The notes under the pieces: model-generated
Told to the model about the DNA's origin: nothing
Databases searched by the model: none
What the model saw: only the letters and a program-made list of their open reading frames with translations
Shown: positions 14,718 to 32,970 of the stretch, one piece after another
Numbering within the stretch: position 1 is the stretch's first letter
Layout of the letters: the number at the start of each line of letters is the position of its first letter
Origin: Pontiellaceae bacterium
Lineage (GTDB): Bacteria > Verrucomicrobiota > Kiritimatiellia > Kiritimatiellales > Tichowtungiaceae
DNA length: 35,209 nt
Reading direction: 5' to 3'
NCBI GenBank assembly: GCA_029939835.1
Contig: JAOZSE010000007.1
Location: 1 to 35,209, forward strand
Translations under genes and position numbers: made by a program

Positions 14718-14753
14718 TTTTAACGAATTCAACGACTTGAACGGTTTTAACGA
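14718..14753. repeat. Degenerate 9-nt-period array
   Basis: ttttaacga attcaacga cttgaacgg ttttaacga; contains the queC stop codon; near-identical units flank the four-helix-bundle gene at 20597-21022. Confidence 0.75.
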
Positions 14754-16406: not shown

Positions 16407-16440
16407 AAACTCCACCGTTTTGAGTACACCACCAAGCAAA

Positions 16441-16468
16441 CCAATAACCAATAACGAATAACTAATAA
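16441..16468. repeat. 7-nt-period array (ccaataa ccaataa cgaataa ctaataa)
   Basis: Direct reading; shares a 20-nt identical stretch with 18749-18768. Confidence 0.75.
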
Positions 16469-16477
16469 CTGCTCTTC

Positions 16478-18714
<2,237 letters not shown>

Positions 18715-18739: not shown

Positions 18740-19294
18740 ATGGGGAAACCAATAACCAATAACGAATATCAAATAACTGGCAGGATTCTTCTGCACACCT
18801 GCTGTGCGCCGTGTGCGGCGCCGTCCGCCGAGCCGCTGGTGCTCGCCGGACACGAAGTAGTGCTTTATTTCAGTAATTTCAATATTCATCCTGAAGCCGA
18901 ATATCTCAAACGACTTGAGCACGCACGCCGGTTGGCGGAGAAAATGAATCTGGTCATTGAAGAAGACCAGTACGATCACGCCGAGTGGCTGGAACATATT
19001 CGCGGACTGGAAAATGAGCCGGAAAAGGGAGCGCGCTGCCGTAAATGCTTTGAATTCAGTCTGGCCCGTACAAATCAAATGGCTGAACGGCTCGATATAC
19101 CCGCTTTTGCCACAACGCTCACCCTCAGTCCACACAAGGCGTCACAGATGATTTTTGAAATCGCCGCGCAGTTTCCGCGCTTTGTGCCGATCGATTTTAA
19201 AAAGAAAGGCGGATTCCTGCGCAGCATTGAATTGAGCGAGGAATATGAGCTTTACCGCCAGAACTACTGCGGGTGTGAGTTTTCAAAAAGGTAG
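18740..19294 (+). CDS. queH: Epoxyqueuosine reductase QueH (DUF208)
   Basis: ILLHTCCAPCAAPSAEPL...YFSNFNIHPEAEYLKRLEHARRLAE...GARCRKCFEFSLARTNQMA...FATTLTLSPHK...YRQNYCGCEFS. Confidence 0.93.
   Translation: MGKPITNNEYQITGRILLHTCCAPCAAPSAEPLVLAGHEVVLYFSNFNIHPEAEYLKRLEHARRLAEKMNLVIEEDQYDHAEWLEHIRGLENEPEKGARCRKCFEFSLARTNQMAERLDIPAFATTLTLSPHKASQMIFEIAAQFPRFVPIDFKKKGGFLRSIELSEEYELYRQNYCGCEFSKR
18749..18776. repeat. 7-nt-period array inside the 5' end of queH
   Basis: ccaataa ccaataa cgaatat caaataa, translated as part of KPITNNEYQIT. Confidence 0.75.
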
Positions 19295-20202: not shown

Positions 20203-20553
20203 ATGACCAGAACAATGCTTAAATCCAAAATTCACATGGCGACGCTGACGGGTACCGAGCTGTACTACACGGGCAGTATCTGTATTGATCAGGATCTGCT
20301 GGACGCGGTTGATATGCTTCCCGGCGAGCAGGTTCAGGTGGTCAATTTGAACAACGGTTCCCGGCTTTTTACTTACACGATTTCCGGCAAGCGCGGTTCA
20401 GGGATAATCGAACTGAACGGTCCGGCCGCCCGGTTGGGAGCTGTCGGCGATAAAGTCATTATCATTTCCTACGCCCAGATGGATGATGCCGAAGCAAAAG
20501 CGAACGAGCCGACGATTATCCATGTGGATGAGCAAAACGCCATCAGGCCCTGA
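20203..20553 (+). CDS. panD: Aspartate 1-decarboxylase
   Basis: MTRTMLKSKIHMATLTGTELYYTGSICIDQDLLDAVDMLPGEQVQVVNLNNGSRLFTY; G-S self-processing site. Confidence 0.95.
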   Translation: MTRTMLKSKIHMATLTGTELYYTGSICIDQDLLDAVDMLPGEQVQVVNLNNGSRLFTYTISGKRGSGIIELNGPAARLGAVGDKVIIISYAQMDDAEAKANEPTIIHVDEQNAIRP

Positions 20554-20558
20554 TGGAT

Positions 20559-20612
20559 CGTTCAAACGCTTTCGCTCGTTCAAGCCGTTGAAGCTGTTAC
20601 AGTCGTGAAAGG
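20559..20612. repeat. Degenerate 9-nt-period array on the 3' side of the four-helix-bundle gene
   Basis: cgttcaaac gctttcgct cgttcaagc cgttgaagc tgttacagt cgtgaaagg; contains the gene's stop codon. Confidence 0.7.
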
Positions 20613-21022
20613 GCGGGAATTAACATCATAAGGGCAATTTGGAATCCCGTTTTCCAACCGCTATGCTTTTGTAGATGTTTAATCAGGCCCCAACAGAGCT
20701 GTGCTTCCCGCACACACAGATTGTAAGCCTCTTTGAACTGCTTCTCTTTTATGTATTTTTGATCCAAAGCAAGATACAACATGCTTCGTACTTCACCTGT
20801 CGAGCCTCGGGCTATAAAAAGAAACTTGGCAAAATCTTTATTGCTCCCACGCTCAAATCCTTCAGCAATATTATTCATCACTGAAACCGCAGCGCGCTGC
20901 ATTTGATCTTTTAAACCGTAATCTTTAAAGAAGGAATCCTCTCGAGTATACGCATAAATCAGGTTCGCCAGTTCACGACCTACCTTCCACGCATCCAAAT
21001 CTTCAAACCGTGATACTTTCAT
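20597..21022 (-). CDS. Four-helix bundle protein (23S rRNA intervening-sequence-protein-like, Avd-related fold)
   Basis: FEDLDAWKVGRELANLIYAYTREDSFFKDYGLKDQMQRAAVSVMNNIAEGFERGSNKDFAKFLFIARGSTGEVRSMLYLALDQKYI; characteristic A-xSV-xNIAEGF motif. Confidence 0.95.
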   Translation of the reverse strand: MKVSRFEDLDAWKVGRELANLIYAYTREDSFFKDYGLKDQMQRAAVSVMNNIAEGFERGSNKDFAKFLFIARGSTGEVRSMLYLALDQKYIKEKQFKEAYNLCVREAQLCWGLIKHLQKHSGWKTGFQIALMMLIPALSRL

Positions 21023-21050
21023 AATCCATTCCTTATATTGTTATTTGACA

Positions 21051-21086
21051 CTTTAATGGCTTAAACGATTTTAACGGTTTTAACAA
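21051..21086. repeat. Degenerate 9-nt-period array on the 5' side of the four-helix-bundle gene
   Basis: ctttaatgg cttaaacga ttttaacgg ttttaacaa; inverted relative to the 3' array. Confidence 0.7.
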
Positions 21087-21157
21087 GTCCGTAAGGCCGT
21101 TTTAACGACAACTCCGCCAAGCTTGAAAATCGGTGGCGGATGAGTAAACTTCTCAGC

Positions 21158-23293
21158 ATGAAAATACTGAAATCGTATGGCCCCTTTCCTTTTACTGTAT
21201 TCCTGGGAGCGTTTCTTCTTTTTCAAATTCAGCCGTTGATCGGTAAATACTTCCTGCCCTGGTTTGGCGGGGCACCGTCCGTCTGGATGACCTGCCTGAT
21301 GTTTTTTCAGATTCTGCTGCTGGGTGGTTATACTTATGCTCACCTAGTTCAGCGGCTTACGCCGCGCAGACAGAGTATCATTCACGCCACCCTCCTTGTG
21401 CTGACTCTGCTGGTCGGCGGAATGCTGTGTTTTATCTGGAAATCGCCCATTTTGCCGGATATTTCATGGCGTCCGGAAGGGGTTGATTTTCCGACCTGGC
21501 ACATTCTCCGTCTACTGCTGGTCAGCATCGGCCTTTCCTATTTTCTTCTATCAACCAGCGCTTCACTGCTGCAGGCCTGGTTTCACCGGACGGATTCAGA
21601 AAAATCGCCATACGTTTTTTATGTGGTTTCCAATACCGCTTCTCTGCTGGCGCTTTTAAGCTATCCTTTTTTGGTGGAGCCCCACTTTGCGATAAAAACG
21701 CAGGCACTGCTCTGGAGCGCCGGGTTCGTAGCCTATGTGGTATTGTGCGGATGGTGTTCCTTCAGGGTTTGGAAATTGCCGCACACCCATACTCCCGTAT
21801 CTCACCACTCCCATACTTCACCACTCCCATACTCTAAATTCCGTCCGCTGTTATGGATCAGTCTGGCGTTTTGCGGGGTGCTGGCGCTGATGGCCATCAC
21901 AAACCAGATGACACAGGATGTTCCGCCTGTTCCGTTCCTCTGGATTCTGCCGCTGTCCATCTATCTGCTCAGCTACATCATCGGTTTCATGGAAAAGCAG
22001 AAGAACTGGCAGGATATCTACATCTATATTCTGTTGTGCGCCTTTGGGGCCGCCTGGTACCTGATGAAAGAAGGGCTGGAAATTGAAATCAGGCATCAGA
22101 TCGCGGCTTACAGCTTTATCCTGCTCGCCATCTGTCTCTTCTGTCACAATGCGCTCTACCGAACCAAACCCGATCCGAAACATCTCACCGGCTTCTATCT
22201 CTGCATTTCACTGGGCGGGGCGCTGGGCGGAATGTTTGTCGTCCTGGCGGCACCCTTCCTTTTCAAGGGATACTGGGAATATCAACTGGTGCTCATCCTT
22301 TCCGGTGCTCTGGCGGTCTTCTTCATCTATACGGATGCGGAAACCCGGCGGGTGTTCCGACCCGTTCGGCATGCCTTTCCGCTTCTGCTGATCGGATTTG
22401 CCGTTCTGCTCGGTTCGGGCATCGTCAAACACATGCGCGGCTCGGTTTATATGGAGCGCAACTTCTTCGGCAGTGTCCGGGTGGCCCTCGAATACAACAA
22501 CGGGATCCCGATTTATACTCTTATGCATGGGCAGATCAACCACGGCATGCAGATTGATCATCCGCGGCTCAAACTGCGCCCGACGACGTATTTTACGGCT
22601 GATAGCGGAGTGGGGATGGCGATACTCCTCAAACAGGCTGAAAGTGATTCTTTGCGGGTTGGAGTGCTTGGGCTGGGCATCGGCACCCTGGCGGCCTACG
22701 GACGGGAAGGGGATATCTACCGCCTGTATGAAATTGATCCGGCGGTTATCCGGCTGGCAGAAGAAACTCCGTATTTCAGCTATCTGCGCGATTCCAAAGC
22801 GGAAATTATAACGGTGGCGGGTGACGGACGCATTTCGCTTGAACGGGAGGCGCGGTCAACGCCCGCGCCCACAGACCCTGTAGCTGCGCCCGCTGGGCGC
22901 GGGGGCGGCCTTGTGCCGTTCGACATCCTCGTGCTGGACGCATTCAGCGGCGATTCACCGCCGGCACATCTTCTGACCCTGGAAGCCTTTGCGCTTTATT
23001 TGCAGCATTTGGCCGATGACGGCGTCATTGCCGTTAACATTTCCAACCGCTACCTCGATCTGCTGCCGGTGATTGGACAGGTGCGGAAAACATACGGGCT
23101 GGAGATGGCTTATATCCAAAGTCGAGGGGATCAGAAAATCAGCGCCAATGCCCAGTGGGTTCTGCTCAGCCGGGATAAAAAATTTATGCAGCATCCAGAC
23201 ATTGCCCGCGCCGACTCGTTGCACAAACGATCCGTGCGCAATATCCGGCCTTGGACTGACGATTACAGCAACCTGCTCTCGGTTTTAAAATAA
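21158..23293 (+). CDS. Polytopic membrane protein fused to a spermidine-synthase-like domain
   Basis: Multiple TM segments, then VGVLGLGIGTLAAYGREGDIYRLYEIDPAVIRLAEE...DILVLDAFSGDSPPAHLLTLEAFALYLQHL. Start at 21140 is also possible. Confidence 0.85.
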   Translation: MKILKSYGPFPFTVFLGAFLLFQIQPLIGKYFLPWFGGAPSVWMTCLMFFQILLLGGYTYAHLVQRLTPRRQSIIHATLLVLTLLVGGMLCFIWKSPILPDISWRPEGVDFPTWHILRLLLVSIGLSYFLLSTSASLLQAWFHRTDSEKSPYVFYVVSNTASLLALLSYPFLVEPHFAIKTQALLWSAGFVAYVVLCGWCSFRVWKLPHTHTPVSHHSHTSPLPYSKFRPLLWISLAFCGVLALMAITNQMTQDVPPVPFLWILPLSIYLLSYIIGFMEKQKNWQDIYIYILLCAFGAAWYLMKEGLEIEIRHQIAAYSFILLAICLFCHNALYRTKPDPKHLTGFYLCISLGGALGGMFVVLAAPFLFKGYWEYQLVLILSGALAVFFIYTDAETRRVFRPVRHAFPLLLIGFAVLLGSGIVKHMRGSVYMERNFFGSVRVALEYNNGIPIYTLMHGQINHGMQIDHPRLKLRPTTYFTADSGVGMAILLKQAESDSLRVGVLGLGIGTLAAYGREGDIYRLYEIDPAVIRLAEETPYFSYLRDSKAEIITVAGDGRISLEREARSTPAPTDPVAAPAGRGGGLVPFDILVLDAFSGDSPPAHLLTLEAFALYLQHLADDGVIAVNISNRYLDLLPVIGQVRKTYGLEMAYIQSRGDQKISANAQWVLLSRDKKFMQHPDIARADSLHKRSVRNIRPWTDDYSNLLSVLK
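21788..21836. repeat. 8-nt-period array in frame within the membrane/spermidine-synthase-like gene
   Basis: cccatact cccgtatc tcaccact cccatact tcaccact cccatact c, translated as TPVSHHSHTSPLPY. Confidence 0.75.
22851..22916. repeat. GC-rich palindromic insert in frame within the spermidine-synthase-like gene
   Basis: tcaacgcccgcgcccacagaccctgtagctgcgcccgctgggcgcgggggcgg; the gtagc...gcgcgg part resembles gtagccgcgtccggcgggcgcggtca at 25360 and 25806. Confidence 0.65.
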
Positions 23294-29396: not shown

Positions 29397-32213
29397 ATGC
29401 AAAAAGCGGATTTTTTGAAGGATTTACCCGGATTCGGAGTGTCGTATTACAGCCTTACGGAACTGGAAAAGCAGGGCGGGTACGATTTTTCCCGCTTTCC
29501 GTTTTCGGTGAAGGTGCTGCTGGAGTCGCTTCTACGGATGCAGGGGCATCCTGCCTGTACCCCGAAGCATCTGTCATCCCTGTGCGAGTGGTCGCCGAAA
29601 AGTGAACCGATTGAATTGCCCTACATGCCTGCCCGCGTGCTCCTTCAGGATTTCACCGGTGTCCCCTGTGTGGTGGATCTGGCCGCTCTGCGCTCGGCGA
29701 TGAAAAGGGCGGGCAAAGATCCCGCGGCCATCGAGCCGCAGGTTCCGGTTGATCTGGTGGTGGATCATTCGGTGCAGCTCGACGCCGCGGGTTGTCCGAC
29801 GGCCCTTGAGCAGAACATCCGCCGCGAGTTCGAGCGAAACGCAGAACGCTACGGATTCCTTAAATGGGGACAGGGGGCTTTCGAAAAACTGCGCGTGCTG
29901 CCGCCGGGTCTTGGCATCTGTCATCAGATTAATATGGAGTATCTGGCGGACTGCGTAGCAGTCGCGCCAGCAGAGGACAGGGGGCAGGAGTCAGGAGTCA
30001 GTCAGTCGGAAATCGGAAATCAGCAATCGAAAATCAAAATTGCCTATCCCGACACGCTGGTCGGAACCGATTCGCACACAACGACGATTAACTGCATGGG
30101 GGTGCTCGGCTGGGGCGTCGGCGGCATTGAGGCCGAGGCCGCGATGCTTGGCCAGCCGATTCCAATCCTGACGCCGGAGGTGATTGGGTTCAAATTTACC
30201 GGCTCACTCAAAGCCGGTGTAACGGCCACCGATCTGGCGCTGACGGTTACCCGTATGCTGCGCGAAAAAGGCGTCGTTGGAAAATTTGTCGAATTTTACG
30301 GCGAAGGTGCCGCGAACCTTAGCTTGGCCGACCGTTGCCCCGTAGCCAACATGGCGCCCGAATACGGCGCGACGACGGGCTTTTTTCCGATTGATGAAAA
30401 AACCATCGCTTACCTTAAAGAGACCGGGCGTACGGAAGAGCAGTGCGCACTGGTTGAGGCTTATTGTAAAGCGCAGGGTATCTGGGGTTTCGAAAGTGAG
30501 GCCGACTATAATGATATCCTTGAACTCGATCTTTTGACGGTTGAACCGGCGCTGGCGGGGCCGAGCCGTCCGCACCAGCAACTCTCGCTCTCTGGCCTGA
30601 AAGAGGAGTTCGTGAGAGACTTCGGCGTTTGTAGCCGCGCTCCGCAGAGCGCGGACCGGCCTTTGCGGAGGCCGGCTACAGAATTAAAAGACGGTTCTGT
30701 TGTGATTGCCTCCATCACGAGCTGCACCAACACCTCCAATCCCGGCCTGATGATGGGCGCGGCGCTGGTTGCAAAGAAAGCGGTGGAGAAGGGGCTGGAA
30801 GTTCCGGCCTTTGTTAAAACCTCGTTGGCGCCCGGCTCGCAGGCGGCCACGCGCTATCTCGAAAAAGCCGGACTGATCGAGCCGCTCAACCAGCTCGGCT
30901 TTCAAGTTGCGGCTTACGGCTGTGCCACCTGCATCGGCAACAGCGGCCCGCTTGCGCCGGAAATTGAGGATGCGATTAAGGAGAACGACCTGACGGTCGC
31001 CGCGGTACTTTCCGGTAATCGAAATTTTGAAGGGCGTGTTCATCCGCTTACCAAAGCCAACTACCTCGCTTCGCCGCCGCTCGTCGTGGCCTATGCACTG
31101 GCCGGAACGGTCAACATTGATCTCGAAAACGACCCGCTCGGCCAGGCCGCTGACGGCCGTGATGTATTCCTTAAAGACATCTGGCCGACGACGGACGAAC
31201 TGCAGGCCGCGATTGCAGTGGCCGCCGACTCCGCGTTTTATACGGAAGTTTACGACGACGCCTGCAACATAAGTCCCGAATGGAACGCGCTCGAAACCGT
31301 GAAAGGCGAAGTGTTTGCCTGGGACGATCATTCGACCTACATTCGTGAACCTTCCTTTTTCGAAGGATGCGAGGAGTCGCCCGCACCGCTGGCCGATATC
31401 GAAAACGCTTCGGTACTCGGTTTCTTCGGCGATTTCATCACCACCGACCATATTTCGCCGGCGGGTGTCATTCCCGAAGAAAGTCCGGCTGCCGATTACC
31501 TGCGTAAGCACGGCGTCGCCGAGCGCGACTTCAACTCTTTCGGTTCGCGCCGCGGCAACCACGAAGTAATGATGCGCGGCACCTTCGGCAATATTCGCAT
31601 TAAGAACAAACTGGTCGAAGGCGAGGGCAGACGCACCTTATATTTTGGAGGGGCTGCGAACGGGGTCAGTACGAATAATTTGACGAATCAGGATTCTCAA
31701 ATTATCGGACTGACCCCTGAGGCTGAGGCAGAAGAGATGTTCATCTATGACGCCGCCATGAAATATGCCGAGGGTGGAACACCGCTCGTTCTGGTGGCGG
31801 GCAAAATGTACGGCGCGGGCTCGTCGCGCGACTGGGCGGCCAAAGGCACAAAACTGCTCGGCGTCAAAGCGGTCATCGCTGAAAGTTTTGAGCGGATCCA
31901 CCGCTCCAACCTTGTCGGCATGGGTATTCTGCCGTGCGAATTCATTAACGGCGAAACCGCCGAGAGCCTTGGCCTGACCGGCCGGGAAAGCTTTACCATT
32001 AATGGACTCGCGGATGGTCTTACTCCCGGCAAAACCCTCGACGTTGTAGGCCGCCCCGAAGCTTCGGGGCGGCGGACGCCCGTTGCGGACAGCGGGCCTG
32101 CAGAAATTCAGTTTCAGGTGAAAGCGCGCGTTGATACGCCGGTTGAGATTGAATACCTAAAGAATGGCGGTGTGCTCAACTACGTTTTGCGGGGGCTTAT
32201 AGAAAGGACGTAA
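29397..32213 (+). CDS. acnA: Aconitate hydratase (AcnA/IRP type) carrying in-frame repeat insertions
   Basis: YPDTLVGTDSHTTTINCMGVLGWGVGGIEAEAAMLGQP, SCTNTSNPGLMMGAALVAKKA, YGCATCIGNSGPL, FGSRRGNHEVMMRGTFGNIR, GKMYGAGSSRDWAAKG; RBS aaggag upstream. Confidence 0.97.
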   Translation: MQKADFLKDLPGFGVSYYSLTELEKQGGYDFSRFPFSVKVLLESLLRMQGHPACTPKHLSSLCEWSPKSEPIELPYMPARVLLQDFTGVPCVVDLAALRSAMKRAGKDPAAIEPQVPVDLVVDHSVQLDAAGCPTALEQNIRREFERNAERYGFLKWGQGAFEKLRVLPPGLGICHQINMEYLADCVAVAPAEDRGQESGVSQSEIGNQQSKIKIAYPDTLVGTDSHTTTINCMGVLGWGVGGIEAEAAMLGQPIPILTPEVIGFKFTGSLKAGVTATDLALTVTRMLREKGVVGKFVEFYGEGAANLSLADRCPVANMAPEYGATTGFFPIDEKTIAYLKETGRTEEQCALVEAYCKAQGIWGFESEADYNDILELDLLTVEPALAGPSRPHQQLSLSGLKEEFVRDFGVCSRAPQSADRPLRRPATELKDGSVVIASITSCTNTSNPGLMMGAALVAKKAVEKGLEVPAFVKTSLAPGSQAATRYLEKAGLIEPLNQLGFQVAAYGCATCIGNSGPLAPEIEDAIKENDLTVAAVLSGNRNFEGRVHPLTKANYLASPPLVVAYALAGTVNIDLENDPLGQAADGRDVFLKDIWPTTDELQAAIAVAADSAFYTEVYDDACNISPEWNALETVKGEVFAWDDHSTYIREPSFFEGCEESPAPLADIENASVLGFFGDFITTDHISPAGVIPEESPAADYLRKHGVAERDFNSFGSRRGNHEVMMRGTFGNIRIKNKLVEGEGRRTLYFGGAANGVSTNNLTNQDSQIIGLTPEAEAEEMFIYDAAMKYAEGGTPLVLVAGKMYGAGSSRDWAAKGTKLLGVKAVIAESFERIHRSNLVGMGILPCEFINGETAESLGLTGRESFTINGLADGLTPGKTLDVVGRPEASGRRTPVADSGPAEIQFQVKARVDTPVEIEYLKNGGVLNYVLRGLIERT
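29977..30045. repeat. 7-nt-period array in frame within acnA
   Basis: gggggca ggagtca ggagtca gtcagtc ggaaatc ggaaatc agcaatc gaaaatc aaaattg, translated as EDRGQESGVSQSEIGNQQSKIKI. Confidence 0.85.
30632..30680. repeat. 49-bp GTAG...CTAC palindromic element in frame within acnA
   Basis: gtagccgcgctccgcagagcgcggaccggcctttgcggaggccggctac; cognate of 396-444. Confidence 0.9.
31662..31717. repeat. 56-bp hairpin element in frame within acnA
   Basis: ggggtcagtacgaataatttga...tcaaattatcggactgacccc, stem of about 21 bp with one mismatch and one bulge. Confidence 0.88.
32045..32102. repeat. GTAGGCC...GGCCTGC palindromic element in frame within acnA
   Basis: gtaggccgccccgaagcttcggggcggcggacgcccgttgcggacagcgggcctgc; half-elements occur at 5094 and 29323 (gtaggcccg...cgggcgtt). 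Confidence 0.85.
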
Positions 32214-32303
32214 GGGACGAAAAGGACAAAAAGCTCTTAAAAATATCTTGTGTTGTGGGCGCTCAAAATGTTTCTGTCCTTTTCGTTGTTTTAGTCCTTT
32301 TAT
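32203..32303. repeat. 9-nt-period GGAC module (left of four-helix-bundle gene 2)
   Basis: ggacgtaag ggacgaaaa ggacaaaaa ... inverted gtccttttcgttgttttagtcctttta; contains the acnA stop codon. Confidence 0.75.
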
Positions 32304-32320
32304 CGCTAAGGAGCCCTGCC

Positions 32321-32881
32321 ATGCCTGAGAAAAAGAGAGGCTTCATTCCGCCGCACGGCGGTTATCAGGAACTCCTTTCTTATCAGAAGGCGCTGATTGT
32401 TTTTGATGGCACGGTGTATTTCTGTAAACGCTGGCTCGATCGATTTGATCGCACCATTGATCAAATGGTTCAGGCCGCCCGTTCCGGCAAGCAGAATATC
32501 ATTGAAGGATCCAAGGCCTCCGGGCATTCCAAAAGGACTGAGGTTATGCTGACGGGAGTTGCCCGCGCCAGTCTGGAGGAGCTTCTGGAAGACTATCGCG
32601 ATTTCCTGCGCCTGCGCGGGGAGGAAGAGTGGATTTTGGAACATCCTTATACAAAGCGTTTGCGCGAACTGAATCGGCGGGAAGACTGTTCCTATGACAC
32701 CTTCAAAAAGGGGATCGAAAGTGACGATCCGGTTGTTGCAGCCAATGTATTAATTGGGCTGATCAAACTCACGAACTATCTGCTGGATCAGCAGGTCAGG
32801 CATCTGGAGCAGGCATTTCTCAGGGAGGGCGGAATCAGGGAGAGAATGACCCGTGCCCGGCTGGAGGAGCGGAGGACATAA
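32321..32881 (+). CDS. Four-helix bundle suffix-domain protein
   Basis: MPEKKRGFIPPHGGYQELLSYQKALIVFDGTVYFCKRWLDRFDRTIDQMVQAARSGKQNIIEGSKASGHSKRTEVMLTGVARASLEELLEDYRDFLR. Confidence 0.9.
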   Translation: MPEKKRGFIPPHGGYQELLSYQKALIVFDGTVYFCKRWLDRFDRTIDQMVQAARSGKQNIIEGSKASGHSKRTEVMLTGVARASLEELLEDYRDFLRLRGEEEWILEHPYTKRLRELNRREDCSYDTFKKGIESDDPVVAANVLIGLIKLTNYLLDQQVRHLEQAFLREGGIRERMTRARLEERRT

Positions 32882-32970
32882 AGGACAAAAGTGCCGAAAA
32901 TTTTTGAGAGTCGTCTTGCGGAGTTTTAGTGCAAATGTTTATGTCGCTTGAGTCCTTTATGTCCTTTTCT
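32874..32970. repeat. 9-nt-period GGAC module (right of four-helix-bundle gene 2)
   Basis: ggacataaa ggacaaaag ... inverted gtcctttatgtccttttc; perfect 13-nt arms ggacataaaggac / gtcctttatgtcc. Confidence 0.78.

Follow-up and report, generated by a model that had tools for sequence, protein, structure and literature searches.

The question raised by this locus is why a small gene for a four-helix-bundle (4HB) protein stands between two arrays of short repeats that face each other in inverted orientation, and whether gene and arrays form a single unit. The window, by which we mean the whole 35,209-nt stretch of DNA analysed, carries this gene on the minus strand at positions 20597–21022. The gene encodes 141 residues of the 23S rRNA IVP / S23p-like kind, as the initial annotation had proposed; the protein exceeds the curated cut-offs of both PF05635 (7.8e-34; 116.5 bits against 33.8) and TIGR02436 (3.1e-30; 104.6 bits against 24), and PF05635 is the sole domain found in it by profile search. 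It is antisense to both of its neighbours, panD on the left (20203–20553, plus strand; TIGR00223, 1e-46) and, on the right, a fused MFS/spermidine-synthase-like gene (21140–23293, plus strand), which matches NF037959 below the cut-off (5.1e-09) and has a 75% identical counterpart beside panD in G007, a genome of the same genus. An extra hydrophobic C-terminal tail (ending in IALMMLIPALSRL; encoded at 20597–20680) is found in 4HB proteins of the window clade (also L003 and L133–L135) and is absent from most other 4HB proteins.

The right arm (21051–21086, plus strand) is built of four 9-nt units, CTTTAATGG, CTTAAACGA, TTTTAACGG and TTTTAACAA, with the consensus YTTNAACGR, and is inverted relative to the left arm. 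An outlying fifth unit, TTTTAACGA, follows at 21100–21108 after a 13-nt spacer. The left arm (20559–20596) is a degenerate 9-nt array that reads CGTTNAANN on the plus strand (TTNAACG on the minus strand), and its units from 20559 to 20594 are CGTTCAAAC, GCTTTCGCT, CGTTCAAGC and CGTTGAAGC. The initial annotation had placed the four right-hand units exactly and had counted six units on the left, of which the last two (20595–20612) are weak and run into the final codons of the ORF (..LSRL-stop). Against dinucleotide-type shuffles, lag-9 periodicity reaches p 0.0012 in the right array (0.0095 when any lag from 5 to 12 is allowed) and p 0.008 in the left array (0.06 when any lag from 5 to 12 is allowed), and the inverted complementarity between the two sides, which had been claimed from inspection, reaches p 0.0006. 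Taken alone, the array evidence from the window locus is moderate and suggestive. It becomes strong because an 86%-identical paralog at another place of this genome, and relatives in further genomes, carry the same 9-nt unit, also inverted.

The window contains further arrays. A second four-helix-bundle gene, with a TIGR04258 suffix domain (32255–32881, plus strand), has 9-nt AAAGGACRA / TYGTCCTTT arrays on both sides (32203–32233, 32276–32302, 32873–32891 and 32938–32967), in agreement with the earlier description of another gene of this fold with arrays of the same period and a different unit. A stand-alone array of the unit found at the 4HB gene (TTNAACGR) lies between convergent ORFs at 14719–14752 (plus strand), with no 4HB gene. 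Two AACCAAT heptamer arrays in direct orientation (16439–16470 and 18747–18775) surround two co-directional ORFs (16478–18714), again with no 4HB gene. A period-8/16 ACTCCCAT array is embedded in the MFS/spermidine-synthase coding sequence at 21791–21833, and a similar unit brackets a 4HB gene at another locus (L040). Adjoining heptamer arrays of CAGGAGT and TCGGAAA (29971–30039) both fall within the large ORF 29397–32213.

We propose that the gene and its two inverted arrays belong to a single discrete element of operon spacers that resembles an intervening sequence (IVS), is probably mobile, and has arms that pair and are the likely cognate site of its 4HB protein; we give this reading a probability of roughly two in three. 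Its first support is generality. In the window genome (1.93 Mb in 183 contigs, 87% complete), the 4HB family has about 12 matches, the last few of them weak, and 35 of 40 related genomes carry 1 to 16 such genes each. For every locus, the 150 nt upstream of the gene were aligned to the reverse complement of the 150 nt downstream and scored against cross-locus pairs; local alignment with these controls was adopted, plain sharing of 7-mers between flanks having proved too noisy. In related genomes, inverted flank similarity exceeds the 95th percentile at 41 of 60 4HB loci and the 99th at 19, where about 5% would be expected at the 95th. The corresponding counts are 59 and 41 among 77 testable loci from Bacteroidota, Bacillota, Planctomycetota, Proteobacteria, Chloroflexota, Nitrospirota, KSB1, Cyanobacteria, Parcubacteria and other phyla. 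Similarity in direct orientation passes the 95th percentile at only 7/60 and 9/77 loci, and inverted flanks are found at none of 29 panD control genes from the same genomes and none of 26 ParE toxin genes, which served as an accessory-gene control. Between about a quarter and a third of the loci fall short in the inverted test. Chance was rejected as a source of the brackets on the shuffle tests, the cross-locus percentiles and the two control gene sets.

The initial annotation had looked to other genomes and orthologous loci for possible contradiction of its proposed link between this fold and 9-nt repeats, and both comparisons favour it. The link between the fold and short-period arrays holds across genomes, but the period is mostly different: 7 is the best period at 38/60 and 40/77 loci, followed by 8, and period 9 is a minority form that belongs to the clade of the window protein. 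A universal 9-nt rule was therefore rejected. The general feature is a pair of inverted short-period arrays, one on each side of the gene, each protein clade having its own unit.

The second support is that the repeat unit tracks the protein and not the site. The nearest relatives of the window protein, on contig 57 of its own genome (86% identity) and in genomes G038 (80%) and G006 (79%), sit at cysD|cysN or gmd|fcl and not behind panD, yet have the CGTTNAANN unit, as seen beside the paralog L003 and the relatives L133 and L134. The window locus (L001) and L003 lie in different operons, and their DNA homology spans array and gene and ends there. Between the window gene and its paralog, dS is about 2.8, with synonymous sites saturated, and dN/dS is 0.026, which places the window protein under purifying selection and means that the unit has outlived neutral divergence. 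The paralogous copy at cysD|cysN (L003:1467–1893) is interrupted by an in-frame TGA and may be in decay. At a single junction, gmd|fcl, 4HB genes of the window type are accompanied by CGTTNAA (2/2), those of the L002 type by CAACAAC (6/6) and those of the L016 type by CCAAACT (8/8). Among 138 loci, the share of different-site pairs with a flank score of at least 30 rises from 0.3% at 25–35% protein identity to 34% at 60% identity or more (permutation p<0.001). Similar units also occur across phyla, between loci of relatives of the window genome (L018, L019) and loci from KSB1, Planctomycetota, Nitrospirota and Bacteroidota (L233–L235, L240, L243). This coupling of protein and unit suggests that the 4HB protein binds the repeats.

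The third support comes from the arms themselves. Among relatives that share a unit, the left arm fits its own right arm better than that of an ortholog (19 against 8 and 18 against 4 independent pairs), which is what pairing between the arms, or copying of one from the other, would predict. The predicted folds of both strands of 20554–21139 pair the two arms around the gene. Shuffles of the entire region reach a similar stability (z -0.93 and -0.63 for the two strands), so that exceptional RNA stability of the element was rejected and, the total energy being ordinary, folding alone is weak evidence.

Part of this evidence would serve equally well if the arrays were operators, with the 4HB protein binding on both sides of its own gene and regulating itself or the host operon, and with no movement involved. 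Coupling of protein and unit, purifying selection on the protein and the position of the arms near the start and stop codons all agree with such a role. It leaves unexplained, however, an inverted downstream arm that co-evolves with the upstream arm, the sporadic presence at one junction and the recurrence of similar units across operons and phyla. As a full account we consider it unlikely; an operator function can nevertheless coexist with the IVS-like element.

The same junctions occur with and without the element. Comparison of the interval from panD to its downstream gene, which the initial annotation had proposed, shows that panD and the MFS gene are 50 nt apart in G007, with no 4HB gene between them (site L109). 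That spacer holds one CGTTGAAGC and is either a never-occupied site or a remnant. Across 30 genomes, the gmd|fcl junction is empty in 8, with spacers of 10–90 nt, carries a 4HB gene in 17, an ORF-less array in one (L217) and a GxxExxY gene in at least two; the ORF-less array seems to retain the tail of a 4HB gene. Presence and absence at an orthologous site are thus seen both at panD|MFS and at gmd|fcl, and the spacers at both are too divergent to delimit insertion ends or a target-site duplication. At 100 of 120 4HB loci the flanking genes are co-directional, and at 92 the 4HB gene shares their direction, approximate figures given that strands were taken from the longest ORF; the window copy is antisense, as few others are. 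Many sites are operon-like by inspection, with neighbours named from their translations: gmd|fcl, cysD|cysN, gltB|gltD, plsY|gpsA, V-ATPase genes, rfbB|rfbA and lysA|dapA.

Behind panD, three loci (L119, L123, L125) have ORF-less inverted arrays where most relatives have the next gene abutting panD; these look as if a gene-less hairpin element had inserted. At L202, on contig C57 of the window genome, fcl has a 64-aa in-frame insert at about codons 205–275 that is missing from many relatives and includes an TTNAACGA array, read as LND-FND-LNE; the inserts of other genomes have other array-like residues. Judging by the fcl insert, arrays seem to enter coding sequence too.

Arrays are also abundant on their own. 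In 0.7 Mb of the window genome, sampled as stretches, 46 of 53 arrays lie away from any 4HB or GxxExxY gene, a slightly pessimistic count because at least one weak 4HB gene escaped the census seeds. Arrays are hence commoner than 4HB elements. An inverted partner within 350 nt exists for only 11 of these 46, and the idea that stand-alone arrays are mostly hairpins was rejected. They may be derivatives of elements or may have a separate origin. The CGTTNAANN array in particular is expanded in the window genome, with 16 occurrences in 699 kb (copies at 4HB genes included) against 0–2 for control motifs and 2 per 350–360 kb in other genomes. Four 4HB-free relatives had one clear array in 351 kb and four 4HB-bearing relatives about eight in 362 kb, small numbers for which genome size is a confounder.

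This abundance is an argument for regarding the arrays as intergenic repeats of an ordinary kind that were already in place, comparable to cyanobacterial heptamer repeats, and beside or inside which 4HB genes merely land. A published precedent points the same way: the TAACTGA heptamer arrays of Beggiatoaceae are described as direct repeats that precede start codons, one unit being dominant, and their description makes no mention of S23, four-helix proteins or intervening sequences (PMC4679880). Those arrays resemble the present ones in being intergenic, tandem and of a 7-nt period, but the 4HB elements have many units, inverted pairs and a coupling to a gene. Insertion into a tandem array, moreover, would leave two halves of the same orientation, and here one side is inverted relative to the other. 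At a single junction (gmd|fcl) the unit changes with the protein clade, empty junctions of 10–90 nt are mostly free of arrays, control accessory genes have no bracket, and the genomes with no 4HB hits had almost no arrays in the 351 kb covered. We therefore hold landing in pre-existing repeats to be improbable, to about the same degree as an operator role.

The proposed IVS-like element is best understood as the operon-spacer counterpart of the IVSs of 23S rRNA genes. In Coxiella and Leptospira, these consist of an S23p/IVP ORF with terminal inverted repeats and are excised by RNase III (PMC4990558). The two have in common the ORF family, a similar size (about 430 nt for the rRNA IVS and about 550–590 nt for the operon-spacer element), terminal inverted sequences that could close a stem around the ORF, and sporadic presence; terminal complementary sequences for a closing stem are found at the window locus in the inverted match between its sides and in the paired arms of the predicted folds. 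They differ in location, since the window element lies between protein genes (panD, MFS) and not within a 23S rRNA gene, and in their arms, which are a single 28-bp inverted repeat in the rRNA IVS and tandem 7–9 nt arrays with a clade-specific unit in the operon-spacer element.

The arms are inverted copies of a 7–9 nt unit, so that a transcript crossing the element could fold back into a hairpin whose loop holds the gene. We infer that the arms pair in vivo and that the repeated unit is most likely what the 4HB protein recognises. On the IVS analogy, such a transcript would then fold and be isolated or cut, presumably by RNase III-type processing, and the neighbouring cistrons would survive. 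Elements would enter junctions of co-directional genes, where a closed hairpin may do little harm, and would later decay into ORF-less arrays. No mobility enzyme was identified for the element. A search against Rfam returned no match for the window element and no PADLOC model for anti-phage defence matched; readings as an Rfam RNA family and as a defence system were rejected on these grounds. IVP genes have been reported near cas genes (PMC3936711, PMC10910872).

A DNA transposase acting in trans is one candidate for the mover. The IVS-like element could be a non-autonomous DNA element moved by a RAYT/IS200-type Y1 (HUH) transposase, in the manner of REPINs, and it does share with RAYT and REP/REPIN systems a single gene between inverted repeats plus stand-alone genomic copies. 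Y1_Tnp matches occur in 37 of 40 relatives, with 8 in the window genome, and G021, G030 and G039 lack Y1, 4HB and GxxExxY genes together. These three are, however, small genomes (1.1–1.2 Mb), and G016 and G022 have Y1 but no 4HB genes. The 4HB protein also has no Y1 domain and its arms are of the array type, whereas Y1 genes here have their own inverted ends, of the known longer kind and of different sequence. A Y1 transposase in trans is possible as the mover, poorly supported, and in our estimate very unlikely. Least probable of all is a retro-mobile element whose 4HB protein acts with a reverse transcriptase in trans as Avd does in diversity-generating retroelements (DGRs): the kinship to Avd that the initial annotation had pointed out, like that to 23S rRNA IVS proteins, is right at family level (PF05635; PMC10053308), but the DGR connection finds no support, as RVT_1 has 0 matches in the window genome (87% complete), which led us to reject RT-dependent mobility, and occurs in 15/40 relatives against 35/40 with 4HB genes.

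In the 5.4 million open-access papers that our search covered, nothing joins IVP/4HB genes to short-repeat arrays, and we regard the novelty of this coupling as provisional. PF05635/TIGR02436 is a large bacterial family without known function. Within the literature searched, the clade-matched inverted arrays offer the first concrete candidate ligand for each family member. They also supply a readable element boundary, and they make it possible to test directly an old proposal, namely that the ORFs of rRNA IVSs are part of a mobile element. The 4HB elements could in addition account for some of the short tandem repeats of bacterial intergenic DNA that have lacked an explanation.

The bracket extends to another gene family. 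GxxExxY genes (TIGR04256; L312–L341) have inverted flanks at 25 of 29 loci, with a weaker period than 4HB genes, and the copy at L210 matches PF13366 of the PD-(D/E)XK nuclease superfamily (4.7e-38). The insertion sequences of CPR rRNA genes offer a parallel: the same sites hold a homing endonuclease ORF, a 23S_rRNA_IVP ORF or none (PMC11270868), much as gmd|fcl holds a 4HB gene, a PD-(D/E)XK-type GxxExxY gene or ORF-less remnants. More than half of the CPR insertions resemble group I introns, and every one is situated in an rRNA gene (PMC11270868), unlike the window element with its lack of an Rfam match. Among the 4HB relatives with structures in the PDB (2gsc and 2rld), XCC0516 is a pentameric ring (PMC4990558; PDB 2gsc). 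A broader and more tentative reading, to which we give somewhat less than even odds, is that these are widespread selfish operon elements in which a ring-shaped 4HB protein reads its own inverted 7–9 nt unit, clades and units diversify as cognate pairs, and GxxExxY genes share the format; that each subunit might take one repeat is speculation. Many of the GxxExxY inverted brackets (L312–L341) have CCAC...GTGG as their outermost sequence.
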